This document shows positions 1 to 44,246 of a DNA stretch of 64,000 nt, in pieces (positions within the stretch are counted from its first letter, which is position 1; the number at the start of each line of letters is the position of its first letter). The notes under the pieces were generated by a model. It had not been told where the DNA came from, searched no databases, and was given only the letters and a program-made list of their open reading frames with translations. The stretch spans positions 62,001-126,000 of the forward strand of contig JABXIQ010000002.1 of NCBI GenBank assembly GCA_013373015.1. The letters are read 5' to 3'. Source of the DNA: Kangiellaceae bacterium. Its GTDB lineage: Bacteria > Pseudomonadota > Gammaproteobacteria > Enterobacterales > Kangiellaceae. The translations under genes were made by a program, and so were the position numbers.

Positions 1-498
1 GACGTATCCTTGTGTACCTAGAAATGCTTCGGCATCTTCGCCTGAAAGTAGGGCTACCCACCATTCTATAAGTTCGTAGAAAGCGCTAAAAGCTAAGCAA
101 AAACAAATGGTTAGGAAATCCCTCCACCAGTTACCATTAACCACATTGTGTCTGATAAAGACTTCGCGGGCGATGATTGCGGGGATAAAACCTTGGGCAA
201 AATGGCCAACTTTGTCGTAGTTGTTACGTTCTGAACCCATCCATTCGGCAATGGTGTCGAATAGCGGCACTTCTGCGTAGGTGTAGTGGCCACCGATCAT
301 CAGAATAACGCAGTGGATCAATATTAGGACGTATGTGAGTTGGGTTAGCCTGAATTTGTGGTAGCTAATTGCCAAAATGATTAAGCCAATAATGGCGGGT
401 AGAACTTCTAGGAACCAAGTGAACTGATCTTTGGGGTTGATGGCTGACCATAGCAAAACGGCAAAAAATATCGTTAGCCAGATAACTTTTTTGAGCAT
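1..498 (-). CDS. DUF2238/YjdF-like integral membrane protein (partial, runs off the left edge)
   Basis: Reverse complement from ATG at 498 reads open to base 1: MLKKVIWLTIFFAVLLWSAINPKDQFTWFLEVLPAII...MIGGHYTYAEVPLFDTIAEWMGSERNNYDKVGHFAQGFIPAIIAREVFIRHNVV... Absent from the ORF track because it has no stop inside the window. Confidence 0.8.
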   Translation of the reverse strand, partial: MLKKVIWLTIFFAVLLWSAINPKDQFTWFLEVLPAIIGLIILAISYHKFRLTQLTYVLILIHCVILMIGGHYTYAEVPLFDTIAEWMGSERNNYDKVGHFAQGFIPAIIAREVFIRHNVVNGNWWRDFLTICFCLAFSAFYELIEWWVALLSGEDAEAFLGTQGYV

Positions 499-693
499 GA
501 TCACCTCTTCAATTGGTCTTTTTACAATTAAAAGTCTCATAAATCATACCTTAACTTAAAGTAAATTCTAACTTTAATCTCTAATTTTATGATAAATAAG
601 CAGTTTATTTTTTAATGTTTGTTAGTGCTAACTAACATTCGCTAAGTGTTTGTAAAAAAAGGACATTTTTCACATTTCTCATGCAAATTTGCC

Positions 694-42096: not shown

Positions 42097-42576
42097 ATGT
42101 TACTTATTCGTGCTTTTGCGGTTCTATTGATCACTCTGTTACTTAGCAACTGTGCAACTTGGCGTAGTGATTATCAGTCGCCAGATTTAAGTTTGGTTAA
42201 TATCACCATGCTGGAATCAGAAGGATTAGAGCAGTTGTACGAAGTTAAGCTGCGTATCCAAAACCCCAACGATATGGAGTTTCCGATTAATGGCATGAGT
42301 TATCGTCTAAATCTAATGGGTGCTAAATTCGCGACAGGTGTTAGTGACGAGCAATTGGTTTTGAAACCCTTTAGTGAACAAGTTGTTACTTTCAAAGTCG
42401 CTACCAACTGGTTGCAAGCGGGTAGAGCCTTGCTCAACCTTTCAAAGCAAAAAACACCAATCGTTGATTATTCTATGACTGCTAAAATCCATACAGATAA
42501 ACTACTGCTTGGAACCATTCCAGTAGAAAAAGAAGGGAAAGTGGATTTGGATAGTTTGTTTGAAGATAAGAATTAA
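42097..42576 (+). CDS. LEA14-like (LEA type 2) lipoprotein-like protein
   Basis: N-terminal lipobox-like LLLSNCATW; LRIQNPNDMEFPINGMSYRLNLMG resembles WHy/LEA14 domain. Confidence 0.75.
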   Translation: MLLIRAFAVLLITLLLSNCATWRSDYQSPDLSLVNITMLESEGLEQLYEVKLRIQNPNDMEFPINGMSYRLNLMGAKFATGVSDEQLVLKPFSEQVVTFKVATNWLQAGRALLNLSKQKTPIVDYSMTAKIHTDKLLLGTIPVEKEGKVDLDSLFEDKN

Positions 42577-42651
42577 CGCCCACAGCACAGGCGGAGCGTC
42601 AGCGACGTCCAGCGCAACGAAGTGGAGCGATTGTGCCTGTGCTTGTTATAC
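42577..42651 (-). repeat. attC-like recombination site
   Basis: GTATAAC-AAGCACAGGC-...-GCCTGTGCT-GTGGGCG; imperfect palindrome with conserved outer boxes and variable middle. Confidence 0.8.
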
Positions 42652-42657
42652 GTGCGG

Positions 42658-43092
42658 TTAAACATAATCTAAGTCGTGCCCATAATCATCAACAAAATAG
42701 CAATCGAAATCAAAACTAGCCCCGATACTGTAGGCTTTTTCTAATGTTGAATGGTCGAGGTGAATTCCATGCTGGCTAGGGTGATAATAACCTACACACT
42801 GAATACAGATATTATATTTATCGCTCAGTTTTACTAACTCGCTTTTAAGTGGAGTTAGGATGCTAAAAATCTTATCAAGATGTTCTTCGATCGGATGTGT
42901 GTCATCCAAACCGCTTTCGAGCTGCCACGATACTTGATTTCTGGGGCGGTTGTTGGCTCTATTAATGTCACCTTTGTTCCAACAATTAGTAGGCTCTAAT
43001 TTCAAAATTTCCGTTATTTCAGAATGTGAACCATCTTCGTTTGAAATCCGTAGATAAGCGTACTCTCTATCTGTTAGTGGAGGTGATGCCAT
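42658..43092 (-). CDS. DUF4279-like protein, cassette cargo
   Basis: 144 aa; YAYLRISNEDGSHSEITEILKLEPTNCWNKGD...SWQLESGLDD resembles DUF4279; stop codon 6 bp before the R'' box. Confidence 0.7.
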   Translation of the reverse strand: MASPPLTDREYAYLRISNEDGSHSEITEILKLEPTNCWNKGDINRANNRPRNQVSWQLESGLDDTHPIEEHLDKIFSILTPLKSELVKLSDKYNICIQCVGYYHPSQHGIHLDHSTLEKAYSIGASFDFDCYFVDDYGHDLDYV

Positions 43093-43286
43093 TGATTTTC
43101 TCTAGCTCGTATAACAGTTGAATATGCGACATTGAGCATAATTTATTGATTTATAAAACATTTATTTTTGAAATCCCTTTTGCTCTTAATTACATCTATA
43201 AAGGGGACATTCTTGTTCCCGTAGTATTTACTTGATAATAACAAAATCAACAGCTTATGCAAATTGCTATGTGTTAAAGAGAACTT

Positions 43287-44246
43287 CTATGGCTTCGCTA
43301 AAGGTCTTAACGGGTATCTGACCTTTTTGCGTTTGCGTCCTGCTATAGCTGTGATTGCCGAGCCGATAACCACTAGTATTGCACCAAGGATGCTGAGGTG
43401 GTTGATGGGCTCTGCTACTAGATAATCTGGGTAGTAGTGGGCCAATAGTTTCATGCTGCCGATGGTGATTAGCGGAGTTATGGCTAGAACTGAACTTACG
43501 CGTGAGGCTTCCCAGTGGGCTAGAGCTTCGGCGAATGCTCCGTAGGCTATCAGGGTGTTGAGACAGCAGAAGACAAGCAGTGCCCAGCCAAAACCATTGA
43601 GACTAATGGCTTGGAGAGGATTTGCCCAAGGTAGTAATAATGGTACGCAAGCTAGGTAAATCATAAACATGATTTGGTTGGAGCTAAAATTGTTGAGCAG
43701 TTGTTTTTGTGCCAAGGCGTAAGCCGCCCAAGTTACTGCGGCAATCAAGATCCAGATTAGCCCAAGGGTATAGCCATTCATTTGGCTGAAAATCTCGCCA
43801 AAGCGCAGATTGAAGAATAGTATTAAGCCAATCACAAAGCAGCTAAAACCGAGCCATTGCATTTTGCTGAAACGTTCCTTAAAAACAATCAAGCTGCCGA
43901 GTAGCATTAACATAGGAGCTAATTGGATGAGTACTTGTGCGCTACTGGGTGTGATGAGTTCTAGGCCAAGTTGGTAGAAAACATAGTTTAGACACAATCC
44001 AGAAATGGTTATGGCCAGCAACAACCCTACTTTACCTTTCATGGCACTGAAACTGGGTAGTCGCTTTCTGAATAATAAAAATAGAAAGACTACTAACGCG
44101 GCACTAAAGAAGCGATACCAGACGATTGTTATGGCGTCCATTTGCTGCAACAAGCCTTTTAGAGCAATCGGTAACAGCCCCCATAAAAAAGCTGTAGTGA
44201 GCGATAATAATAAGCCGAGTTGCCAGCGACCAGAAACTGTATGCAT
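43287..44246 (-). CDS. EamA/DMT superfamily transporter
   Basis: 10-TM pattern; FLWGLLPIALKGLLQQMDAITIVWYRF. Confidence 0.9.
   Translation of the reverse strand: MHTVSGRWQLGLLLSLTTAFLWGLLPIALKGLLQQMDAITIVWYRFFSAALVVFLFLLFRKRLPSFSAMKGKVGLLLAITISGLCLNYVFYQLGLELITPSSAQVLIQLAPMLMLLGSLIVFKERFSKMQWLGFSCFVIGLILFFNLRFGEIFSQMNGYTLGLIWILIAAVTWAAYALAQKQLLNNFSSNQIMFMIYLACVPLLLPWANPLQAISLNGFGWALLVFCCLNTLIAYGAFAEALAHWEASRVSSVLAITPLITIGSMKLLAHYYPDYLVAEPINHLSILGAILVVIGSAITAIAGRKRKKVRYPLRPLAKP

Follow-up and report, generated by a model that had tools for sequence, protein, structure and literature searches.

The integron gene cassette and its attC site

The window, i.e., the whole stretch of 64,000 nucleotides analyzed here, corresponds to C54:62001-126000 in the draft assembly of a Kangiella genome (G000; 2.58 Mb, 62 contigs, 95% complete). 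The features relevant to this work are the following.

42097..42576, plus strand: LEA_2 family lipoprotein gene (PF03168), flanking gene outside the cassette
42574..42576, plus strand: stop codon of this convergent gene, at the same place as the right crossover (sequence)
42571..42651, minus strand: attC site, with R'' GTATAAC at 42651-42645 and R' GTTAATT at 42577-42571 (covariance model)
42577..43114, minus strand: integron gene cassette, 538 bp (sequence; attC model; all attI copies diverge here)
42658..43092, minus strand: cassette ORF, 144 aa, DUF4279 (PF14106; Pfam, 5.1e-26)
43115..43221, minus strand: attI copy, conserved unit ending at the crossover G43115|T43114 (own-genome repeats; intI-adjoining in G015 and G016)
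43234..43250, minus strand: promoter-like module TTGATTTTGTTATTATC with an extended -10, TGtTATTAT (also present at other remote attI copies; putative promoter)
43287..44246, minus strand: flanking gene outside the unit, conserved in all 20 genomes, which we take to encode an EamA-type transporter

The segment at 43114..42577 (minus strand) comprises the DUF4279 ORF and an attC, and had been proposed in a first-pass annotation to be an integron cassette with its own attC; the coordinates given there were exact to the letter. On the minus strand, its left junction reads ...CAACTG(43115)|TTATACGAGC, the crossovers being G|TTATAC on the attI side and G|TTAATT on the far side. A 22-bp leader (43114 to the ORF start) precedes one compact ORF, the only one in the cassette, as annotated. 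Its stop codon TAA (42660-42658) is followed by CCGCAC, by R'' GTATAAC and then by AAGCACAGGC ... GCCTGTGCTGTGGGCG(42577)|TTAATT, with paired arms between R'' and R' G|TTAATT. R'' is indeed the exact complement of the circularized R', GTTATAC, as had been pointed out.

The attC was evaluated with a covariance model that is independent of G000, its 19 training sites all coming from other species of the genus; a stricter search, in which R'' and R' had to be complementary, overlooked integrated sites. The model matched 42651..42571 with 59.3 bits (E=4.6e-11), which ranks first among the seven attC matches in the whole 2.58-Mb genome, and it revealed no second attC in the 64-kb window up to E=5. 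In a control of 36 loci without these attI copies (129.6 kb), it returned 0 matches up to E=1. The check suggested with the annotation thus yielded a strong match, the only one in 64 kb, and the strength of this match is enough to keep the cassette reading, which was to fall only if the model failed and relatives also lacked a clean junction. The folded strand is only modestly stable (z=-2.1 for the bottom strand, -1.5 for the top strand), so that the evidence for attC lies in the conserved boxes and their pairing, not in folding energy. An Rfam scan of the whole window gave no matches. We conclude that the segment is a real integron gene cassette, ordinary in itself, with putative recombination by IntI. 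As annotated, no integrase is found within the 64-kb window, which therefore contains no functional intI adjoining attI, as a complete integron does, and its single attC is fewer than the two or more, without integrase, that characterize a CALIN.

An attI copy upstream of the cassette

About 107 bp directly upstream of the cassette (43221..43115) end exactly at its left border. When the G000 genome was searched with the locus, three other places matched 90 bp upstream of the cassette and not the cassette itself, and at each of them the repeat is followed by another ORF with an attC. In relatives, this element is found in divergent orientation to a full intI, at a distance of 134 bp in G016 and of 132 bp in G015, which identifies the unit upstream of the cassette as attI; in these two native loci it adjoins intI and cassettes start at its G|TT crossover. 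In an alignment of ten attI copies, conservation extends to the crossover ...CTGTT and nothing is conserved beyond. Native and remote copies thus all diverge right after this point, which establishes the left junction of the cassette. By sequence and position, the upstream unit is an attI, i.e., a predicted IntI site, and this copy is itself remote from intI.

The description of the cassette as solitary is incomplete, since it overlooks the attI directly upstream. Nor do the data support the related view that the cassette stands alone, with no platform for integration: it is docked on an attI copy that has about 13 further copies in the genome. The locus is probably an array of a single cassette, docked at one of the dispersed attI copies of the Kangiella chromosome. 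The usual reading of lone cassettes is off-target insertion at a non-classical site (attG), with no involvement of attI. The far junction, G|TTAATT at the stop codon of a gene, may be such an ordinary genomic target, and off-target insertion is among the proposed origins of CALINs, together with degraded integrons and rearrangement, the question being open (PMC8618304). Against it, the near side is an attI copy, repeated widely and adjoining intI in relatives, which makes an attG insertion highly improbable here. The attG insertions of Loot et al. (2024), as far as they are presented in PMC11023631, are likewise chromosomal cassettes outside the native array; the sites as described there are not attI copies, whereas the left side of the window cassette is one.

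Upstream of attI, the module at 43234..43250 may correspond to a promoter. A TTGATTTTGcTA-like box was found in 16 of 77 attI copies, belonging to several attI types, while a promoter pattern scan of the window alone gave nothing above shuffled sequences. Short-form remote copies combine approximately 94-118 bp of homology to the native region with a module like TTGATTTTGCTACTATC, which contains an extended -10 (TGnTAnTAT); in other remote copies, homology to the native region reaches the intI start (approximately 205-235 bp) or enters intI by a short distance. At mnmE in G016, the remote attI is 98% identical to the native attI of the same genome, and the module upstream of it is the one seen at remote copies of other species, which suggests that the attI part may have undergone conversion.

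Right border and state of the site in relatives

On the far side, the last attC base is followed by TTA, which is the stop codon of the LEA_2 gene (TAA, 42574-42576) read from the other strand. Considering convergent ORFs of at least 100 codons, 8/43 terminal attC junctions and 0/19 internal ones fell at such a stop codon; some attC were counted as terminal only because the retrieved sequence ended there or because the model missed the next attC, and this coincidence is only suggestive. Another attI copy with an attC lies approximately 100-900 bp to the left of the window start (C54:61077-61907, plus strand), and the last junction of that array, G|TTA, is also the stop codon of a convergent gene (window 1..540, minus strand).

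The clean empty site expected in relatives at 42576/43115 was not found, the LEA gene being detected only in G000 and G016. In G016, a different gene of 142 aa occupies the place of the window cassette (L068, 4855-5354), and the sequence downstream of it likewise finishes with GGCG|TTAATT ahead of the LEA stop codon; neither an attC recognizable by the model nor an attI was found at this gene. For the remote loci of G012 and G016, too, no simple before/after pair was found: these places are hotspots of variable content, and where G012 has its remote locus, the sister genome G010 has an attI of a type of its own.

Dispersed attI copies and the cassettes that follow them

A G016-type query and six other native attI types revealed about 14 attI copies in G000, roughly six of which rest on short matches of about 45-70 bp. 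With six native-type queries, attI matches were obtained in all 20 Kangiella genomes, including those without a full intI. Most copies end at TG|TTA and are followed by unique DNA, often by cassettes. The left flanks of 77 attI sites, a few of them native, fall into 43 groups, so that most of these sites are different places. Shared hotspots hold different attI types depending on the species, as at the place of the FMN-binding gene (G010, G012) and at mnmE (G016 versus G000 and G004).

Such a copy number and such dispersal between unrelated genes would also suit a MITE-like repeat that merely resembles attI and lies beside cassettes by coincidence. A repeat of this kind has two defined ends, yet the Kangiella copies share a precise right end only, the crossover G|TTA, with left homology ranging from 41 to 400 bp. 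Moreover, in every native locus examined attI lies beside intI, with the intI start codon 230-237 bp from the crossover (ten intI loci), and the attached ORFs differ from each other and carry attC. A coincidental repeat is, in our view, almost certainly not the explanation.

Cassettes indeed follow the attI copies. All seven attC detected genome-wide in G000 (E<0.001) lie 460-2368 bp downstream of an attI copy and on the same strand; a uniform placement of attC would give this arrangement with a probability of about 9e-16. Over 71 loci searched, 68 attC matches were obtained up to E=0.5; at the sensitivity of the model used, many remote attI copies had no attC within 2.6 kb. The first cassette of a remote site in G014 has a counterpart with 90% identity in the native array of G011, and the cassette on contig C28 of G000 has one with 81% identity in that of G017. 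Cassettes being common to remote and native arrays, both kinds of site draw on one cassette pool.

Concerning the spread of attI itself, identities of 97-98% between some native and remote copies suggest that the native site was copied or that homologous conversion took place. Simple copying from the native site would be insufficient, since G000 also carries attI types unlike its own native type. The insertion by IntI, at both ends, of a circle bearing attI was also considered and was dropped for Kangiella, where the conserved left ends do not start after G|TT. In three loci (L173 in G019, L184 in G014 and L185 in G004), two attI copies on one strand are separated by less than 2 kb, showing that units of attI plus cassette can stack in tandem.

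The native locus and its integrase

The native locus displays the order comM-intI-attI-cassettes in G015, G016 and G017, and in G015 it extends to a gene that contig C1 of G000 also carries. The integrases of G000 comprise XerC/D-like matches only and one partial IntI, in which residues 27-127 are followed, in frame, by residues 303-321, and then by comM. This partial intI, with its in-frame internal deletion, opens contig C40 beside comM; contig C1 breaks off shortly after its attI, and the flank on the other side corresponds to the G015 native locus. Contigs C1 and C40 thus probably border one native locus. Comparable internal deletions of intI were found in G013 and G009.

These deletions, in G000, G009 and G013, are compatible with the view that every remote site was once a complete integron in its own right and has since lost intI, as are the presence of several attI types in one genome and the copy on contig C20, which retains 20 intI codons. 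Very few of the remote copies examined, however, keep recognizable intI codons, and their left flanks are mostly unrelated genes, in the 43 groups mentioned above. Furthermore, short-form copies bear the shared promoter-like module where intI would start, and the single place with a recurring intI, whole or broken, is the comM-linked one. Independent decay of many integrons consequently appears unlikely to us.

A distributed integron as the best reading

The best reading of these data is a distributed integron, in which one integrase acting in trans would serve many attI landing pads. From a mechanistic point of view, the comM-linked IntI may have acted in trans on the dispersed copies, recombining the folded bottom strand of the attC of a circular cassette with the G|TTA crossover of any available attI, and the promoter module carried with many remote copies may then express the first cassette. 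An intact intI is not present in every relative, which speaks against this reading, and, the intI of G000 being defective, action in trans is deduced from relatives and from the past. Having lost the middle of its intI, G000 probably holds frozen arrays, and its cassettes are probably immobile now, barring an intact intI missing from the assembly or supplied from outside. For the broader form of the proposal, in which promoter-bearing dispersed pads would be kept native-like throughout the genus and in a second family, and would be the source of some CALINs regarded as degraded, we consider the chances to be about even.

Outside Kangiella, further short matches to the attI core were found in other genera of the family, a few of them with attC. 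G053, which belongs to the same order but to a different family and was meant to serve as a negative control, came out positive: it possesses one intI locus with its native attI and eight remote attI copies. Most of these eight begin at the same upstream point, and the remote copies (L244-L251) share an upstream stretch unlike the native one. ORFs follow all attI copies in G053, and same-strand attC were detected at 7/8 remote loci (not at L248), with up to five attC at one locus. Ten other genomes gave no match to the attI query, which was of the G053 type only.

The integron parts themselves are known; what departs from the usual scheme is the attI network, i.e., many attI copies away from intI. 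A sedentary chromosomal integron has the same attC, the same G|TTA crossover and, in relatives, the same type of attI adjoining intI, and its native arrays share a cassette pool with the remote sites. It has, by contrast, one attI, near intI (PMC9024848), where Kangiella has many remote attI, each with a short array. CALINs likewise contain attC-bearing cassettes without a neighboring integrase, but the array in the window is headed by attI and has one attC, below the default threshold of at least two (PMC9024848). In a Shewanella prophage, M16-3 (PMC9892861), a complete integron and an integrase-less array both have the same attI type first; this is one case in one prophage, whereas the Kangiella copies are chromosomal, numerous and genus-wide. 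The Delta-attI cassettes of mobile integrons (PMC12901181) also display an attI sequence outside its normal position; in them, a cassette within an array has attI instead of its attC, while in Kangiella attI precedes the cassette at a separate place in the chromosome. Our literature search, mostly restricted to papers available without subscription, returned dispersed attI in the Shewanella prophage only and no genus-wide report.

CALINs are about as frequent in surveys as complete integrons (2961 versus 2760; PMC9024848), and a whole genus now shows that a true attI copy can stand at the head of integrase-less clusters. Standard software ignores attI outside class 1, and cases with a single attC fall under its default threshold. 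If IntI acts in trans, a single integrase could insert cassettes and have them expressed at numerous sites of the chromosome simultaneously, beyond the head of a single array. Since natural attI variants number in the dozens and come with matching integrases, the requirements of attI also become definable.

Gene content of other arrays

The gene content of other arrays offers further observations. A remote attI of G010 is followed by a three-gene cassette (L114, 1015-3920, minus strand) encoding a SMEK domain protein, ABC-3C middle component 6 and a DUF2326 protein, a candidate ABC-three-component defense system carried in one cassette. On contig C28 of G000 (L065, 8866-13861), a gene run directly follows the remote attI and its cassette; we read it as resembling a filamentous phage, with a replication protein and a Zot-like protein. 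Finally, a cassette protein in the native array of G000 (L063, 8457-9929, minus strand) matches DitA of PADLOC (3e-66) and is a candidate defense protein, with SUKH and TraB family proteins as neighbors.
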